Shown in pieces: positions 13,882-42,967 of a stretch of 49,290 nt of DNA. The notes beneath the pieces were generated by a model. It saw nothing but the letters and a program-made list of their open reading frames with translations, had not been told where the DNA came from and made no database searches. The position numbers and the translations under genes were made by a program. The DNA comes from a virus: IMG/VR virus record IMGVR_UViG_3300033571_020575, positions 1 to 49,290 of that record; one strand, written 5' to 3'. Numbering within the stretch: position 1 is the stretch's first letter; each line of letters starts with the position of its first letter.

Positions 13882-14897
13882 GTAAGTTAGGTAAGTTTGA
13901 GCGCTCAGAGCACATAGGAGCGCTATCTGAAGAATTGTTTGATAGTAATGCTGACGACCACGCTAAAGAGGCTATGCTTTCAATTTTTGGTTTTTACTCT
14001 GCTTATTACTTAAAAGGTCCAAATGACGAATACCACAGGGAGAATTGGCGTCAGCAAAAAGATGTTTTTAATAAATATTCATGGAATTCTTTTGGATATA
14101 GAGATGAAGAATTTGTTGGTCCGGTAGAAATAATTGCTGCAGGGTGCTCTATGACAATGGGTCAGGGAGTTCCGGTGGAGGCAAGATGGTCAAATCAATT
14201 AGCTAAAAAACTTAATATGACAGTAGCAACTACTGCAGTGGCTGGTTGGTCAACTCAAACCGCAATAAATGCTGTAATGCACTACATACTTACTTTTGGT
14301 AAACCAAAAATTGTAGCGCTACTCATTCCAGATTTTTTTAGATATGATTTACTTTTAAACACCGCCGTGTTTCAGCCCAAATGGATAACAGACAATAAAG
14401 AAACAAATATAACCAGAAGAACGGTTGAAGTGTCTGGTTCTGCTAGAGATTTGTCAAAGTTTTCTAAACGCCCTCACGACTCTAGCGAAGTAATTCCGTC
14501 TGAATTTTCCTATTTTTCTAATGGCCAAGCTTTAAGATTTTTCATTGAATATTGTAAAGAAGCTAAAATTTCTTTAATTTGGGGGACCTGGGACATGTCA
14601 ACACACGAAGCTATTGACCATGCCTCTAAAGTTAAAGTTATGAAAGAAATGTCAATACAAGCCCCTAAAATAGATTTTTCTGGTTATATCGATATAAAAT
14701 ATTTTCACAACTACGGAGGGCACGTAGACCCCTCTGCAAAACTTAAAGAGCTTAATTGTCACTCTAATTTAAAGCAAAAATATGAAAAATATTTTGATTT
14801 GGGGACAGATACTGACTACCACATGGGTGTACATCTTCATGCTCATGTTGCTGATAAATTTTATGAAAAGCTGAAACTTAATAATTATGAAAAATAA
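13878..14897 (+). CDS. SGNH-hydrolase-like protein, paralogue 3 of 4
   Basis: The protein has A-A-G-C-S-M-T-M-G-Q-G, AVAGWSTQTAI, TFGKPKIVALLIPDFFR, FSKRPH, I-W-G-T-W-D and M-G-V-H-L-H-A-H-V-A-D, all in the shared order. ATG at 13878 overlaps the stop of the GT2 gene (ATGA), so it is preferred over an upstream ATG at 13845. The 3' end overlaps the methyltransferase by 11 bases. It closes a run of three glycosyltransferases, which supports action on a glycan. Confidence 0.6.
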   Translation: MSKLGKFERSEHIGALSEELFDSNADDHAKEAMLSIFGFYSAYYLKGPNDEYHRENWRQQKDVFNKYSWNSFGYRDEEFVGPVEIIAAGCSMTMGQGVPVEARWSNQLAKKLNMTVATTAVAGWSTQTAINAVMHYILTFGKPKIVALLIPDFFRYDLLLNTAVFQPKWITDNKETNITRRTVEVSGSARDLSKFSKRPHDSSEVIPSEFSYFSNGQALRFFIEYCKEAKISLIWGTWDMSTHEAIDHASKVKVMKEMSIQAPKIDFSGYIDIKYFHNYGGHVDPSAKLKELNCHSNLKQKYEKYFDLGTDTDYHMGVHLHAHVADKFYEKLKLNNYEK

Positions 14898-15603
14898 TGT
14901 AATTTTTTACTGCAAAGATGCGGCAGAAAAGTTTCTTGAAGACTCTTCTGTAGATTTATTTATTGGACACCCCCCCTACTATATGACAGAGTTAGAGCTA
15001 AATGGCGGTGACCCATCTAAGCAAATGCAAAATGCAGAAAATTTAAACGAATATTTAGACAGACTATTGTTGTCATTTTTGCACATGGAGGCTGCTTTAA
15101 AAGAAGATGGTCATATGTTTATCGCTTTACAGAATACTAGCTTTGGGCTTGGAATTTTGCCAAAAATATTTGACAAAACTAAACTTCAGCTTCAAAGCAT
15201 AAGAATTTGGGACTACTCTTCTGATTTTAAAGTTGAGGGGAATCACACTGTTTTATTCGCCCATCTAACAAAAAATCCTTGGGGAGCGGGAGATAACCCT
15301 CAAGGTCCATTTGTTCTTACAAATTCATGGCTAGAAGCTACCGAAGAGCTTAGAAGCTACCACACAGATCGAGCAACTGTTGGTGCTGCCCCCGAGGGAG
15401 TGTATAGAGAAATGATAAAAAATTATTCTGAGCCTGGTGACGTTGTTGCAGATATTTTTGCTGGGTGTGGAACTGTCGGAGTAGTTGCTCTTCAATTGGG
15501 CAGAAAGTTTATCTATAATGATGTATCTGAAGACAAATTACTTGTTTCTGAGGAAAGAATTAAAGACGTTTTAAATTCTACGGGACTTAGCTCAGCTGGT
15601 TAG
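14887..15603 (+). CDS. DNA methyltransferase-like protein, HPPY active site
   Basis: The 238-residue protein has the beta-type amino-methyltransferase order: motif IV as G-H-P-P-Y-Y near residue 28, and motif I late as DIFAGCGTVGVVALQLGRKF, then YNDVSEDKL. The usual first residue of motif IV is D, N or S; His here is unusual and may change base choice or activity. A diverged relative lies at 40778. Its last 23 bases lie inside the tRNA-Met sequence, so the final residues are set by the tRNA. Confidence 0.75.
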   Translation: MKNNVIFYCKDAAEKFLEDSSVDLFIGHPPYYMTELELNGGDPSKQMQNAENLNEYLDRLLLSFLHMEAALKEDGHMFIALQNTSFGLGILPKIFDKTKLQLQSIRIWDYSSDFKVEGNHTVLFAHLTKNPWGAGDNPQGPFVLTNSWLEATEELRSYHTDRATVGAAPEGVYREMIKNYSEPGDVVADIFAGCGTVGVVALQLGRKFIYNDVSEDKLLVSEERIKDVLNSTGLSSAG

Positions 15604-15654
15604 AGCAGCGAACTCATAATTCGCCGGTCGTCGGTTCAAGTCCGACAGTCTCGA
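15581..15654 (+). tRNA. tRNA-Met (anticodon CAT)
   Basis: A full cloverleaf can be drawn. The acceptor CGGGACT pairs with AGTCTCG (one G-U), the D arm is GCTCAGCTGGTTAGAGC, the anticodon stem is GCGAA/TTCGC around CTCATAA, and the T arm GTCGG-TTCAAGT-CCGAC has the canonical loop. The discriminator is A and CCA is not encoded. CAT could be an elongator Met, or Ile if the C is lysidylated; no initiator-type features are evident. The 5' third overlaps the end of the methyltransferase gene. Confidence 0.93.
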
Positions 15655-15655
15655 C

Positions 15656-15728
15656 CCCCGTGTACTCCAATGGCAGAGAGAGCCGACTTAAAATCGGTAC
15701 AGTATCGGTTCGAGTCCGATGGCGGGGA
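15656..15728 (+). tRNA. Probable tRNA with anticodon TAA (Leu), short variable arm
   Basis: The acceptor CCCCGTG pairs with GGCGGGG except at position 7. The anticodon stem is GCCGA/TCGGT around CTTAAAA, giving anticodon TAA for UUA codons. The T arm ATCGG-TTCGAGT-CCGAT is perfect. The D stem is only three pairs. The variable loop is five bases, unlike bacterial tRNA-Leu, which has a long arm, so charging identity is uncertain. It follows the tRNA-Met by one base; the AT-rich genes here use TTA often. Confidence 0.75.
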
Positions 15729-16687
15729 CTCAAGTAAACTTGTCTCTGAAAGATAGGGCAAAATTGATATCACGTAGTTTTAACAGGTTAGAAGTTGACC
15801 TATCTTCTATGAAGATTCGAAAAAGCTCGGAGCAAAAAGATAAATTAGAAAAAGAAGTAAATTTCTACAAATACGCCCCGAGTGACATTAAAAACCTAAT
15901 GCCTTCTCTGTATGGGCACTCTGAAGACTATTCTTGGTATGAGATTGAATATATTGATGCTCCAACTCTTGGCAGAGAGTACATATTAAATTCAATTCCC
16001 CTCAAGACCTGGGAGCTAATTTTTAGCTATTTAAATAGGTTTCTTGTCAAATATATAGACCACAGTGTTGAAAGTGGTCCTGGGCAGTTATATGACGTTT
16101 TAATCAATAAGGCAATCAATAGGTCCAATCAAATCGAAGACCGGGTTCTTAAGTCAATATTCTTCGATGGCTGCACAATTAACGGAAAGCCTTATCCACC
16201 ACTAAACAGCTTGTTAAAGACTAAATCTGAAATTCTTTATAAAGTCCCTTTAACTGTTGGGCTGCTGCATGGAGATCTTTGCTTCTCCAATATTCTGTAC
16301 GGAGATGGTGGAAAGATAATTAAATTTATAGACCCTCGTGGAGGGTTCACTGAGCCTGCTATCGATGGGCCAACCGTTTATGACATAGCCAAAATTGCTC
16401 AGAGTGTTGTTGGTGGCTACGAGCAGCTTCTCTATAAGCGCTATTCGCTAATTCTTAAAGAAGATAACTACCTAATGGTGTTAGAAAAGCCAATCAACTA
16501 TGAGCGAGTTCTGCCAATCTACGAAGAGTTTATAGGGCAGTTCGGGGTCTCTGTGGCAGACTCTTATGTGTTGGCCGGGCTAATGCTGGCGGGAACTCCG
16601 CTACTTCATATGGAGGATTCAGATAGGGCAAAGGCACTGGCATTACAATCAGTCTTGTTACTGTCGGGAGATGTTCAATGGAAGTAA
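15719..16687 (+). CDS. Phosphotransferase (APH/choline-kinase-like)
   Basis: The protein contains V-G-L-L-H-G-D-L-C-F-S-N-I-L-Y (the HGDxxxxN catalytic loop) and F-I-D-P-R-G (the metal-binding Asp), as in aminoglycoside/choline/sugar kinases. A partial N-lobe precedes this. The ATG at 15719 lies inside the 3' end of the tRNA; tRNA processing would remove it, so TTG at 15740 is a credible true start. The gene overlaps the nucleotidyltransferase by 10 bases. Kinase plus nucleotidyltransferase is the usual way to make an activated sugar or sugar-like alcohol. Confidence 0.75.
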   Translation: MAGTQVNLSLKDRAKLISRSFNRLEVDLSSMKIRKSSEQKDKLEKEVNFYKYAPSDIKNLMPSLYGHSEDYSWYEIEYIDAPTLGREYILNSIPLKTWELIFSYLNRFLVKYIDHSVESGPGQLYDVLINKAINRSNQIEDRVLKSIFFDGCTINGKPYPPLNSLLKTKSEILYKVPLTVGLLHGDLCFSNILYGDGGKIIKFIDPRGGFTEPAIDGPTVYDIAKIAQSVVGGYEQLLYKRYSLILKEDNYLMVLEKPINYERVLPIYEEFIGQFGVSVADSYVLAGLMLAGTPLLHMEDSDRAKALALQSVLLLSGDVQWK

Positions 16688-39226: not shown

Positions 39227-39490
39227 ATGGCAAAAATTTCAGGATGGGAGAAGTTCCGCAAGGCGGTAACTGGGTCCTACAGCGAGAGACTAACTCTAGC
39301 TATTGCTCAGGAGGGTGCAGCCAAGAAGGCAGCAGCCATTGCAGTAGAGCGAGCTAAGGTTTCAGCTGGAACTGGCAAGGTTGCATCTTCTGATGCAAAG
39401 AAGCCAGCAGCCAAGAAGGTTTCAGCTCCAAAGAAGGCAACTACAACCAAGAAGCCTGCTGCTAAGAAACCTGCGGCTAAAAAGAAGTAA
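39227..39490 (+). CDS. Lys/Ala/Pro-rich basic protein, histone-H1-like tail
   Basis: The 87-residue protein has a helical N-half (WEKFRKAVTGSYSERLTLAIAQEGAAKKAAA) and a tail of K-K-P-A-A-K-K repeats like those of actinobacterial HU/Hlp and H1-like proteins. DNA compaction in the virion or nucleoid binding is likely. It has its own promoter and terminator, suggesting high, separate expression. Confidence 0.75.
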   Translation: MAKISGWEKFRKAVTGSYSERLTLAIAQEGAAKKAAAIAVERAKVSAGTGKVASSDAKKPAAKKVSAPKKATTTKKPAAKKPAAKKK

Positions 39491-39502
39491 TCAAACAAAA
39501 CA

Positions 39503-39535
39503 ACAGGGTCATCAAACTGATGGCCCTGTTTTTTG
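39503..39535 (+). terminator. Intrinsic terminator
   Basis: ACAGGGTCATCA (39503-39514) pairs with TGATGGCCCTGT (39518-39529), followed by TTTTT. Its T tract runs straight into the TATAAT of the next gene. Confidence 0.9.
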
Positions 39536-39547: not shown

Positions 39548-40576
39548 ATGGAAACAGGCGTTGAACCAATAGCTGACTCTCGACAACATTTAGAGGGAGA
39601 ATCAGTTCTATATTTTATAGGCTCCAACTTTAAAGGAATCTATACTCCCAAAGAAATTAAGTCGCAAAAAATAAAAGGCAAAGAATATACAAATGATTTG
39701 CTTTTGGACAAAACAATAAAAAAATTTTTTACTCCCTACTCCTACCGCTTCGGTCATTTTTTTACTGACACCCTCTCTGCTATTTTGTTAGCCATCGAAA
39801 GAGATACTGCAGAAAAAAGAAAAACAACACTATTGGTACCCCCAACTGGACCAAGCGAAAGAGATAATTTAACTGGCTCAATAAAAGTAATAGCTTATCT
39901 TTTAGATTACTTCTCTAGTACTGAAAATGTCTCAACGTTAGTTGTCCCGGGTGCTGAAGAAGAGAATGAAGTTACTTTAGTTAGAGTTGTAAATTTGGAG
40001 TTCCAACCTCTAACCAGCTTCAACGTATGGTCCATGAAAAAAGTTAGAGATTTTTGCATGTCTCTTCCAGATATATCATCCTCTTTCGGAGACAGAAAAA
40101 TATATCTTAGTAGAGAGAAAACACCAGATACAACCAAGGTAATGTTTTCCGAGTTTTCTTTAGCAAGAAAAGACCCTAACCACTTTCCACCAAACTATCC
40201 AAGAGTCTCTAATGAGACAGAGCTAGTAGATTATTTAGATAAAGATTTTAGATTCAAAATTGAGAAGATTATTCCGGAGGACATAGAGTCTTTTCAAGAC
40301 CAGGTTAGACTTTTCAGCGAGAGCAGACTTGTAATTTCTTTGACAAGTTCTAGTCTTTTTAATATGCTTTTCATGCCGTATGGCTCAACTGTTGTAGAGT
40401 TGGTGACCCCACTTACAACTGTTGAAAATCGTGAAGATAATAATATATCATATACCACCTCTTATCACAATCACTATTCACTTCTAAGTTTTGTTTGTGG
40501 CATCAACTACGTTGGACTTCCCCACAATAGGGACGTCAAACAAATAATTGACAAATTAGATAAATATATGTTTTAA
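39548..40576 (+). CDS. Glycosyltransferase family 61-like
   Basis: A protein of about 342 residues with R-F-G-H-F-F-T-D near residue 65, K-I-Y-L-S-R-E, N-E-T-E-L-V-D-Y-L and a late S-R-L-V-I-S-L-T...S-L-F-N-M-L-F-M-P-Y-G-S-T-V-V-E-L, the pattern of GT61/DUF563 transferases. The usual H-G-A-x-L-N is S-S-S-L-F-N here. It is a lone monocistronic glycosyltransferase, away from the 11.7-13.9 kb cluster. The sugar is unknown. Confidence 0.72.
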   Translation: METGVEPIADSRQHLEGESVLYFIGSNFKGIYTPKEIKSQKIKGKEYTNDLLLDKTIKKFFTPYSYRFGHFFTDTLSAILLAIERDTAEKRKTTLLVPPTGPSERDNLTGSIKVIAYLLDYFSSTENVSTLVVPGAEEENEVTLVRVVNLEFQPLTSFNVWSMKKVRDFCMSLPDISSSFGDRKIYLSREKTPDTTKVMFSEFSLARKDPNHFPPNYPRVSNETELVDYLDKDFRFKIEKIIPEDIESFQDQVRLFSESRLVISLTSSSLFNMLFMPYGSTVVELVTPLTTVENREDNNISYTTSYHNHYSLLSFVCGINYVGLPHNRDVKQIIDKLDKYMF

Positions 40577-40601
40577 TTAAATACCATTTAATTTTTGTGG
40601 T

Positions 40602-40607
40602 TATAAT
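40602..40607 (+). promoter_or_regulatory. -10 box of the structured ncRNA
   Basis: TATAAT; transcription should start at about 40613-40614, exactly at the first stem of the RNA. No good -35 is visible. Confidence 0.65.
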
Positions 40608-40612
40608 GAACT

Positions 40613-40767
40613 CGTACCGATTTTGTTGCACGGGAAGGTGCGGAAGAAAGCAGGGTCGGTACACTAAGTTTAAAAGCTTTTTCCTGGGAGAGGGAAAAAG
40701 AAAACCTGTTAGCTATTAGACAGGAAGACCGCTCCAACATGTTATAGTGTTGGGGCGGTTATTTTTT
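40613..40767 (+). ncRNA. Structured ncRNA of about 155 bases, unrecognised
   Basis: A closing stem GTACCGA/TCGGTAC (40614-40620, 40656-40662) encloses hairpin GCAC/GTGC (40628-40641). Then come CTTTTTCC/GGAAAAAG (40677-40700), CCTGT/ACAGG (40705-40724), and the terminator stem ACCGCTCCAACA/TGTTGGGGCGGT (40728-40759) with TATTTTTT. There is no ORF inside. It is either a free small RNA or a leader with an attenuator, as the SD of the 40778 gene follows the T tract at once. I do not recognise a known class. Confidence 0.7.
40728..40767 (+). terminator. Intrinsic terminator of the ncRNA
   Basis: A 12-pair stem (40728-40739 with 40748-40759) and an 8-base loop, followed by TATTTTTT. Confidence 0.92.
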
Positions 40768-40777
40768 GGAGAGATAG

Positions 40778-41491
40778 ATGATTGATACTGTAGAGCTACA
40801 TTGCAAAGATGCAACAAATATTTTTTTGGAGCCAAATAGCATTAATCTCTTCTTTATCAACCCGTCATATGTCGGGTCAAACATTGAGGAGTACGGAGGC
40901 CCCGCCGATGCTCACATCAACAAAGTATCTTCTGCGGAAGAATACATTGATAGGCTTGTAAAAGTTGCAAAACACATAGAGTATGCCCTAGCCCCGAATG
41001 GTTCGGCATTTATAATGCTCCAAAATGAATATAATATAGTTCCAAGATTAAGCAATCAAATTGCAAAAGAAACTGCCCTTGAGGTGGGCCAACTTTTTGT
41101 TTGGGACTTTTCGTCTACTGAACTATTTAAAGACCTTAGATATGAAAAGATGGGCCTAATAATTCATCTTTACAAAGATAGTTTTTATGTGGATGAAAAC
41201 GAAAGGGAGTATGTTGTTAAGATTCCTATTGACCCATTTGCTATGAAAAAATACGACCACCTGGGGTTCACAGAAAACAATATTCCAGAAGAGCTTTACG
41301 AAAAATTTATTGTGGCCTTTTCCAAGGAGGGGGACACAGTCGCGGATATTTTTGGTGGCACGGGAACAGCGGCAGTTTCATCCATCCGTCTGGGCAGGAA
41401 GGCGGTCTACAATGATATCGCCAAGGACCAGTACGAGATAGCTAAAGCCAGGATTCAAGATATGGAAAAAGATGGAACCAAAACTACTTAA
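40778..41491 (+). CDS. DNA methyltransferase-like protein, degenerate NPSY site
   Basis: The 237-residue protein aligns along its length with the 14887 protein: D-L/N-x-F-I-G/N-x-P in motif IV, a central helical part, and V-A-D-I-F-G-G-T-G-T-A-A-V...YNDI for motif I. Motif IV reads N-P-S-Y, with the second Pro lost. SAM binding looks intact but base methylation is doubtful. A ggagag SD lies directly behind the ncRNA terminator, suggesting RNA-linked control. Confidence 0.7.
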   Translation: MIDTVELHCKDATNIFLEPNSINLFFINPSYVGSNIEEYGGPADAHINKVSSAEEYIDRLVKVAKHIEYALAPNGSAFIMLQNEYNIVPRLSNQIAKETALEVGQLFVWDFSSTELFKDLRYEKMGLIIHLYKDSFYVDENEREYVVKIPIDPFAMKKYDHLGFTENNIPEELYEKFIVAFSKEGDTVADIFGGTGTAAVSSIRLGRKAVYNDIAKDQYEIAKARIQDMEKDGTKTT

Positions 41492-41735
41492 AATTTCAGT
41501 GGTAGCTAATTTTTTGGGAGTCTCTGTTAAGACTATTTATAACTGGATTAACCATAACAAGCTAGAAATGCCAGAACCAGGCTATGTTTATTACGATAGA
41601 GCTTACGAGGTATCACTAGAGCAGCAAGCAAATAAATCTGCTATTTCTTACTTTATGGCAGTTAAAGGTATCAAAAGGGACAGCAACGGACGATTCCAAC
41701 AGGGACTAGGTAAAGTGGAGGAAAGTGGGGCATAG
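41472..41735 (+). CDS. Small HTH protein (MerR/excisionase-like)
   Basis: The 87-residue protein begins with L-K-I-S-V-V-A-N-F-L-G-V-S-V-K-T-I-Y-N-W-I, a winged HTH typical of excisionases and MerR-like phage regulators. A short wing (PGYVYYDRAYEV) and a helical tail follow. It overlaps the methyltransferase by 20 bases. Another such protein is at 44961; either could bind the dispersed motif nearby. Confidence 0.7.
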   Translation: MEPKLLKISVVANFLGVSVKTIYNWINHNKLEMPEPGYVYYDRAYEVSLEQQANKSAISYFMAVKGIKRDSNGRFQQGLGKVEESGA

Positions 41736-42013
41736 TGGAAATGTTGTTAATAAACAGCCAAACCCCAGCGCTCTCCCTCTCCTCACCCAAAATTTCTTTT
41801 TGAATACACCAACTAACAAATCAATAACTTTTAACGAATGTACAATGGATGACATGTTCAGCAACATTAACGGCGTCCAGGAAACTCAGTTCCGGAAATT
41901 TACCCTACAATTATTGGAGACGGCCCTGTCACAGTCCTCTCCCCAGTTGGCAGGGTCGTCCTATTTTCTCCCTGTTCGCCTTCAGCGTAATCTCTTGACA
42001 ATAAAGGCGTCCA
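41736..42013. other. Intergenic region before the terminase-small-like gene
   Basis: No gene is supported. It holds an AACTTTTAACGAA copy (41826-41838) and a hairpin GACGGCCCTG/CAGGGTCGTC (41919-41928, 41951-41960) followed by CTATTTT, a possible terminator. Regions before terS can contain the packaging site; nothing here proves it. Confidence 0.5.
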
Positions 42014-42023
42014 GTGGTAGAAT
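41995..42023 (+). promoter_or_regulatory. Consensus promoter overlapping the start of the 42014 gene
   Basis: TTGACA (41995-42000), 17-base spacer, TAGAAT (42018-42023) with TG-g before it. Its start point (about 42030) lies after the GTG at 42014, so it either serves an internal transcript or the gene has another upstream promoter. Confidence 0.6.
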
Positions 42024-42967
42024 CAAATAACGGCGAGCTAGACCTAAACAACCTCGTCATCGACCTTCCAGTTGCAGCACGGGCTGACCTCTCAGAGCTC
42101 GGAATCGAGGAACTGGATAAAGGCGTCTGCGAAGACACTTTTCAGAACCGTGCCCTTCTGCGCCGGTCCAAACTTATTTGGGAGCCGGTTTACACTTTAG
42201 ACGGAACATCAAGCGGCCTGCTCAAAGTAAGAAGCGCAGATTCCACCCGCGAGCGCCGAATCCAATCTCTCAGCGAGAAGCGTCCAATACTTTCCGTTTC
42301 AACCGATAACAACTCTGACTACCTAACCGGCCTGGACTTACTAGCAGAGGAAGCAACGGACTACCTGGTTCCACCTTGGGTAATCCACGCCACGCGCCTC
42401 TACCTCAAAGAGCAAGAAGACGGAGGACCTAAGTCTGCTAAACGCCAGCCACTTGCTCAACCGCATCGCTGCCGACACATCAAGCATGACGGAATCCGCT
42501 GCATGCTCTGGGCATCGGGGCGTCCAAAGGATGACGGCCTGTGCAGAGTTCATTTAAGAAGCGTCAAACACAAAACTTCAGATGACATCGAACGCGCTCG
42601 TGAAAAGTTGCAGCAAGCTGCTCCCTTCGCAGTTGACAAACTTGAAGAGCTCATGGAGTACGCAGAGTCCGAGCCGGTAAAACTTAAAGCGGCTACTGAA
42701 ATCTTGGACCGTGCCGGAGTTAGGGGCGGCTACGAAGTTGACTCAACAGTCAACGTTGAGATGCGGCCCGCAGCAGAAATCATTGCTGAGCGGCTTGACC
42801 GTCTAGCAGCTGGTGCTATACAAACCGCGGCCAGACTTGCAACGGAGCATTCGGTTATCGAGGCTGAGGTTGTAGTTGAGGTTGAGGATGCGACCGACGG
42901 ACAAACTTTTAACGAAGAATCAAAAGAAGAGCAGCGGCCCGCGCTCTCTAACCAGGAAGATAAATAA
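42014..42967 (+). CDS. Terminase small subunit-like protein
   Basis: The 317-residue protein has an internal Cys/His site (C-R-H-I-K-H-D-G-I-R-C...L-C-R-V-H) and a helical region AREKLQQAAPFAVDKLEELMEYAESEPVKLKAATEILDRAGV, wording seen in small-terminase-like phage proteins that recruit DNA for packaging. GTG 42014 with aaagg upstream is the only in-frame start before a stop at 42002. GC content is higher than to the left. A large terminase gene is not visible. Confidence 0.6.
   Translation: MVESNNGELDLNNLVIDLPVAARADLSELGIEELDKGVCEDTFQNRALLRRSKLIWEPVYTLDGTSSGLLKVRSADSTRERRIQSLSEKRPILSVSTDNNSDYLTGLDLLAEEATDYLVPPWVIHATRLYLKEQEDGGPKSAKRQPLAQPHRCRHIKHDGIRCMLWASGRPKDDGLCRVHLRSVKHKTSDDIERAREKLQQAAPFAVDKLEELMEYAESEPVKLKAATEILDRAGVRGGYEVDSTVNVEMRPAAEIIAERLDRLAAGAIQTAARLATEHSVIEAEVVVEVEDATDGQTFNEESKEEQRPALSNQEDK

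Follow-up and report, generated by a model that had tools for sequence, protein, structure and literature searches.

Analysis of a 49,290-base IMG/VR virus record (the whole stretch is referred to as the window, W) demonstrated that it carries a structured RNA that is real, conserved and in no recognized family, and which constitutes a new RNA family. We propose that it is a phage small RNA of approximately 155 nt that pairs loop to loop with the mRNA leader of the terminase small subunit gene (terS) and tunes the onset of DNA packaging, a reading that we hold with a confidence slightly short of even. The features are as follows.

40602-40607, + strand: TATAAT, a -10-like box 6 nt 5' of the first stem, read directly
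40614-40768, + strand: structured RNA of about 155 nt with four hairpins, defined by fold and covariation
40614-40662, + strand: hairpin 1, with a 13-pair outer stem, an inner hairpin with loop GGGAAG (40632-40637) and a bulge GGAAGAAA (40642-40649)
40677-40700, + strand: hairpin 2, whose loop contains GGGAGAG (40686-40692), the complement of the terS leader loop
40705-40724, + strand: hairpin 3, with AGCUA within its loop
40728-40767, + strand: hairpin 4, an intrinsic terminator with the conserved loop GUUAUA and a T tract at 40762-40767
40778-41491, + strand: N6_N4-type DNA methyltransferase gene, an insertion common to the window and L002 only
41472-41735, + strand: small HTH (HTH_17/MerR-like) gene, the usual neighbor just 3' of the RNA
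41906-41911, + strand: TACAAT, a -10-like box 7 nt 5' of the terS leader hairpin
41919-41960, + strand: terS leader hairpin of 13 pairs, with loop CAGUCCUCUCCCCAGU (41932-41947) including CUCUCCC (41937-41943)
42014-42967, + strand: terS, the proposed target, named from the annotation of a homolog in phage Cece

A conserved four-hairpin RNA and its relatives

The protein encoded at 42014 has Actinomycetia phage DSL-LC01 (61% identity) and Microbacterium phages as its nearest named relatives, and its homolog in Microbacterium phage Cece is annotated as terminase small subunit. The DSL-LC01 genome comes from a lake-water assembly, and its assignment to the Actinomycetia was predicted (PMC10611076). 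Among bacterial genomes, the single like contig (L104) lies within an Aquiluna MAG. Based on the kinship with Microbacterium phages and with DSL-LC01, the lake origin of the latter and the Aquiluna contig, the host of the window phage is likely a freshwater actinobacterium.

The initial annotation had placed a TATAAT box, hairpins, a terminator, a T tract and a ribosome site at 40602-40790, and each was located there. The closing stem that it described with 7 pairs (GUACCGA/UCGGUAC) does begin at 40614 but is the outer portion of the 13-pair stem of hairpin 1, in which the inner hairpin has 4–5 pairs; likewise, the terminator given as 12 pairs is present, with a stem counted as 13–14 pairs. 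This stem is GC-rich and followed at once by a T run, as in an intrinsic terminator, and directly 3' of the T tract lie GGAGAG (40768-40773) and the ATG (40778) of the methyltransferase ORF. The minimum free energy of 40614-40768 was -67.4 kcal/mol compared with -41.1 ± 3.75 kcal/mol for 200 dinucleotide shuffles, none of which was as low (z -7.0). When the terminator stem was forbidden, no competing fold arose in 7 of 7 members, with an energy gap of 22–28 kcal/mol. The TATAAT box, which had been taken to mark the start, has no good consensus -35 box nearby, and promoter prediction gave none ending there. A box of the TAGAAT, TATAAT, TAAAAT or TAGACT type was found just 5' of the first stem in L002, L005, L026, L104 and L107. 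A clear -10 box ahead of the RNA was not seen in L006, L021, L031 and L097, in which the hairpin-terminator unit lies close behind a Lys-rich gene.

A search of the whole window against Rfam 15 gave nothing at the gathering score except two tRNAs, and 40400-41000 searched down to E 5 gave just two sub-threshold chance matches, in agreement with the initial view that the RNA belongs to no recognized class. A 37–40 codon ORF (40597 or 40606 to 40719) crosses the RNA in the window. The ORFs over the RNA in L002, L026 and L097 bear no apparent likeness to the window peptide, and L005, L021 and L031 have no ORF of at least 20 codons there. A peptide product of this ORF was rejected on the grounds that a like peptide is absent from the ORFs of the relatives; a conserved ORF, which had been named in advance as evidence against the RNA, was not found.

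Related loci (L numbers) were gathered with terS as bait, 20 and then 80; L024 and L025 are Microbacterium phages Cece and Big4, respectively. In small sets, hairpins 2 and 3 were misaligned by MAFFT, so the window sequence served as the sole basis of the covariance model, and the alignment was then fitted to this model. Searching 87 sources, with the near-copies L003, L004, L007 and L011 left out, gave matches in L026 (E 1e-16), L005 (E 3.5e-14) and L002 (E 1.8e-13), and weaker + strand matches just 5' of the HTH gene in L021 (5e-4), L027 (6e-4), L032 (0.004), L031 (0.018) and L006 (0.019). The other 11 of the 20 matches (E 0.014 to 6.2) are likely due to chance, some being known terminators in reverse, and L027 and L032 have merely a terminator-like or weak form of the RNA. 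L097 was added through a terminator pattern scan (model E 3.6e-6), and L104 (E 4.9e-10) and L107 (hairpin 1-2 pattern; E 6.7e-16) were found independently after the model had been fixed. The RNA is therefore present in six genomes besides the window at E ≤ 5e-6.

Covariation in relatives, which the initial annotation had set beforehand as a test, was present: over 7 members, 31 of 43 pairs had changed on both sides and 96.9% of 260 cells were paired. Because a model-fitted alignment leans towards the structure, slides and shuffles are quoted; the covariation score was 0.615 compared with 0.236 ± 0.026 after shuffling (none of 500 shuffles reached it) and 0.134 or less when the partner was slid. 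In hairpin 1, both-side changes occurred in all 4 inner pairs and in 12 of the 13 outer ones. RNAalifold recovered hairpin 1 and the terminator unaided from the same alignment and did not recover hairpins 2 and 3, in which stem and loop lengths differ between members. The terminator stem of eight anchored members had 83 Watson-Crick, 20 G-U and 1 other among 104 cells; in the same stem table, hairpin 4 alone was anchored and the arms of hairpins 1–3 were picked by eye.

The unpaired motifs remained constant while the stems varied, namely GGGAAG-N4-GGAAGAA, GGGAGAG and the GUUAUA-like terminator loop. The first is found in hairpin 1 of W, L005, L026, L104 and L107, with GGAAGAA on the other side in L002, and GGGAGAG occupies the hairpin 2 site of W, L002, L005, L026, L097, L104, L107, L021, L031, L006 and L010. 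Hairpin 3 is absent from L104 and was not seen in L097.

By eye, the RNA was not seen at this site in the HTH-bearing terS relatives L008, L028, L029, L033-L036, L039 and L040, and DSL-LC01 has the terS hairpin and lacks the RNA. A DNA-level search of named phages with the RNA gave short matches at E 9 among the best 20 of 123. In viral contigs, neither the methyltransferase protein nor an exact 20-mer of hairpin 1 had a match; of the 11 stretches that contained a 16-mer of hairpin 3, 5 lay on contigs of already known members and 6 had no model match, and the hairpin 1-2 pattern returned 8 stretches, of which three were true (L107 and two already known) and 5 due to chance. A hairpin with a GGGAGAG loop and a terminator directly after a Lys-rich gene was also observed in L009 (1654), L012 (1648) and L013 (1642); these units may be a reduced form of the RNA and stand outside the member count.

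The initial annotation regarded the RNA and the methyltransferase as a regulatory unit and the enzyme as degenerate with an odd NPSY site, and neither claim held. A methyltransferase ortholog was found in W and L002 only, and elsewhere the RNA directly precedes the HTH gene; in L005, L026, L097, L104 and L107, the terminator adjoins its ribosome site. The two methyltransferases share NPSY (INPSY, VNPSY) and DIFGGTGT, and the enzyme therefore shows no decay. The end of a Lys-rich gene is visible just 5' of the RNA in L005, L026, L097 and L104, and W and L002 have a glycosyltransferase gene 5' and the methyltransferase gene 3'. As judged from these arrangements, what is conserved is the RNA site between the Lys-rich gene and HTH-terS together with the unpaired motifs, the GGGAGAG loop foremost.

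In a tree of 86 terS rows, W, L002, L005, L026, L104 and the divergent L021 form one group (support 100/99), with L104 on a long branch that makes its position less sure, and W and L002, the sole methyltransferase carriers, group at 100/98; L107 and L097 are outside the tree. The simplest reading of gene content and tree is that the RNA is older at the locus than the methyltransferase, whose link to the RNA is incidental. A riboswitch or attenuator tied to the methyltransferase was rejected, the gene being missing from most members and no fold competing with the terminator.

Other features of the region were recorded. A gene for a small Lys/Ala/Pro-rich basic protein (39227-39490) has its own terminator (39502-39530), and similar genes precede the RNA or the terS hairpin in relatives, including DSL-LC01. 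A second N6_N4-type methyltransferase with an HPPY motif lies at 14887-15729; the end of its ORF (15603) overlaps a tRNA-Met gene (15581-15656), with tRNA-Leu adjacent.

The terS leader hairpin and its complementarity to the RNA

The terS hairpin lies approximately 1.2 kb downstream of the RNA on the same strand. Close relatives have a stem of 12–16 pairs between HTH and terS with the loop CAGUCCUCUCCCCAGU or a near form. Of 88 terS loci whose upstream sequence reached 300 nt or more, 80 have CTCTCCC in a stem of at least 10 pairs; one of the 80 hairpins lies 338 nt upstream and may be due to chance. It is lacking in eight loci (L016-L020, L066, L088 and L090). Counted by distinct terS proteins, 62 of 70 have the hairpin, 7 lack it and 1 is cut. 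The searches required CTCTCCC or CTCTCCCC, and this string is thus invariant by construction; the informative result is its placement in such a stem in 80 of the 88 loci. No Rfam 15 family matched 41700-42060.

In 24 aligned terS hairpins, 16 of 16 pairs had changed on both sides and 94.0% of cells were paired, with a covariation score of 0.877 compared with 0.299 ± 0.025 after shuffling. Among 54 distinct hairpins with 14 pairs each, 638 cells were Watson-Crick, 99 G-U, 8 A-C and 11 other. The ratio of G-U to A-C was 12, and base composition predicts 1.8; this excess argues that the + strand is kept as RNA, beyond the symmetry of DNA. All 24 close relatives examined have TAAAAT, TACAAT, TACACT or TAAACT with its end 6–9 nt ahead of the stem, so the hairpin would open the terS mRNA. 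The box is mostly absent from the distant half, and any TANNNT within 12 nt was present in 31 of 54 overall, against a background of 13%. Some distant members have a T run after the stem, and there the terS stem may also end the upstream transcript.

The CUCUCCC of the terS loop has a perfect complement in the GGGAGAG of hairpin 2. Eight pairs can form in most members (GGGAGAGG with CCUCUCCC) and seven in L026, L021 and L031. When the leaders of all genes (-150 to +30) were scored against the hairpin 2 loop, the terS leader ranked first among 83 in the window, at -17.1 kcal/mol compared with -12.8 kcal/mol for the next. It was also first in L002 (1/17), L005 (1/21), L021 (1/21), L031 (1/18) and L006 (1/20) and second in L026 (2/23), where another leader pairs better; the genomes are related and the ranks are hence not independent. 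The ranking covered W, L002, L005, L021, L031, L006 and L026; terS of L097 is cut, and L010, L104 and L107 were left out. Both loops are invariant, so there is no covariation within the predicted loop-loop pairing, which is the main weakness of the proposal.

Every RNA-bearing genome with a readable terS leader also has the terS hairpin, and most of the 80 hairpin loci are without the RNA. The first function of the terS hairpin therefore needs another partner, and this other use is probably the older one. In 11 genomes including the window, GGGAGAG follows a TAAAAT or TATAAT box at the start of a minus-strand operon, and 20 shuffles gave 0 to 2 such leaders, the shuffles covering the first 9 kb of each sequence and the observed count whole sequences. 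In the window (36241-36222, minus strand), a TAAAAT box is followed by GGGGAGAGG, with the first operon gene at 36201-35872; by eye, the first proteins of the operon look exported, in the window as in the 10 other genomes. As a sequence pattern, the recurrence could point to a more extensive RNA code or to a motif commonly used by proteins or ribosomes.

Similar sequences were noted at other sites. A conserved pyrimidine tract, GCGCTCTCCCTCTCC...CAAAA, lies between HTH and terS (41765-41800), also in relatives without the RNA, and is likewise complementary to GGGAGAG, with the fit at 41771. The tract may lie near the packaging end, given that the genome record of Cece starts 62 nt ahead of terS. 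At 1326-1386, a + strand leader ahead of the gene at 1386 has TAAACT followed by a small hairpin that carries GGGAGAG. Cece and Big4 have a repeated leader, GGGAGAGGAACCC(A/G)AAATG, after -10-like boxes.

Proposed function and alternative explanations

From the observed folds of both RNAs, their synteny, the exact complementarity and the rank of terS, we infer transcription, loop contact, effect and its sign as follows. The RNA would start near the TATAAT box, or in some relatives be cut from the 3' end of an upstream transcript, and would be ended by its own terminator. The hairpin 2 loop, GGGAGAG(G), would contact the CCUCUCCC loop at the 5' end of the terS mRNA through 7–8 base pairs. The contact would alter translation or decay of the mRNA and thereby tune the start of packaging, with lowered TerS as the likelier sign. 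A point against this is the distance of 53 nt in the window between the end of the terS hairpin and the start site of terS, which the pairing would not cover directly. Transcription past the terminator is probably the source of the HTH or methyltransferase mRNA, because approximately 10–30 nt separate the T tract from the start codon and leave no room for a promoter. The RNA may for this reason have a cis side too.

The constancy of three unpaired purine motifs while the stems change could also be explained by protein binding, in which GGGAAG, GGAAGAA and GGGAGAG would be sites for a phage or host protein, the RNA a sponge or landing site, and the terS match due to chance or to a shared protein. 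The recurrence of GGGAGAG as the opening of a minus-strand mRNA in 11 genomes agrees with this explanation. However, the exact 7–8 nt complement sits in the other strongly conserved hairpin loop of the locus and terS came first of 83 leaders; moreover, CsrA, a known GGA-binding protein, is to our knowledge as a rule absent from actinobacteria. Protein binding is thus considered unlikely, if the foremost of the alternatives. Somewhat less probable is a cis-acting leader of the HTH (or methyltransferase) operon, i.e., an attenuator or a put-like antitermination RNA that controls read-through of its own terminator. In the members read, the terminator adjoins the ribosome site of the next gene, whichever gene that is, so read-through is needed, and HK022 putL also lies just 3' of its promoter and has bulged stems (PMC9378689). 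Against it, no fold competed with the terminator in any of the 7 members, put RNA has approximately 70 nt and two stems, no put-like Rfam match was obtained, and the terS complement is left unexplained. The same absence of a competing fold bears on the initial suggestion of a trans-acting small RNA or an attenuator sensing a ligand or RNA: a small RNA is plausible, and a ligand-sensing attenuator is not supported.

A small RNA whose targets are host messages or rRNA, the match to terS being secondary, would fit the RNA's own terminator and the -10 box in close relatives, and phages do produce host-directed small RNAs (PMC12197685). The terS match is, however, the strongest among phage leaders, which alone were scored, and we regard a host target as improbable. 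That the element is a mere terminator or 3' end of the upstream gene with no function in trans is suggested by L006, L021, L031 and L097, where the unit is close behind the Lys-rich gene with no clear -10 box; such an element would not preserve loop and bulge sequences across several hairpins, and this explanation is very improbable. The small RNA acting on terS therefore remains our preferred reading. A broader and doubtful extension of it is an RNA-RNA network on one 7-letter code, in which CUCUCCC of terS would be read by GGGAGAG of the minus-strand operon mRNA and of one clade's small RNA.

Comparison with known systems and significance

CopA and CopT of plasmid R1 are an antisense pair that meets loop to loop, with a first contact of approximately 7 nt. 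The phage RNA is alike in being structured and in having a loop whose sequence complements that of a loop in an important gene's leader. CopA is made from the strand opposite its target, whereas the phage RNA is on the same + strand as terS, 1.2 kb away, and its complementarity is limited to the loop. The CI RNA of satellite phage P4 (seqA/seqC) and the C4 RNA of phage P1 are short phage RNAs that keep prophage immunity, and in them one segment is complementary to more than one phage leader site, just as GGGAGAG here also fits the tract at 41771. They differ in that they serve immunity and the RNA here concerns terS; the likeness is one of principle.

The HK022 put RNA, of approximately 70 nt with two stem-loops, acts in cis on RNA polymerase (PMC9378689). 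Both are phage RNAs with bulged hairpins close to a terminator, put lying next to a promoter and the window RNA next to its -10-like box; the four hairpins and 155 nt of the window RNA depart from the size and stem number of put. Cluster K mycobacteriophages have start-associated sequences, a 13-bp GGGATAGGAGCCC-like box just before the start codon (PMC3203893), which the repeated GGGAGAGGAACCC(A/G)AAATG leaders of Cece and Big4 resemble. A purine-rich GGGA-AGGA motif in actinophage leaders is common to these sequences and the RNA, but GGGAGAG stands in a hairpin loop of an RNA with its own terminator, 85 nt upstream of the next start codon, unlike those boxes. By analogy, the nearest systems are CopA/CopT and P4 CI RNA in working principle, HK022 put in place and the Cluster K start-associated sequences in motif, and the RNA does not share all defining features of any of the four.

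Our searches of the open-access literature gave nothing relevant on an RNA already described in phages of this kind or at a terminase gene, nor on RNA control of a terminase gene, and the main text of a 2025 review on small RNAs of phages does not contain the word terminase (PMC12197685). The RNA family is new, and the general principle is already known. If true, the pairing network would couple DNA packaging to the remaining gene expression, a layer of control that we did not find described in the open-access literature. The 155-nt RNA and the 42-nt target hairpin make a compact and testable pair, and the terS hairpin forms a family of its own, present in 80 of 88 related loci with no Rfam match. 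These results indicate that a structured RNA of an uncultured actinophage can be found, and tied to a candidate target, through comparative sequence analysis alone.
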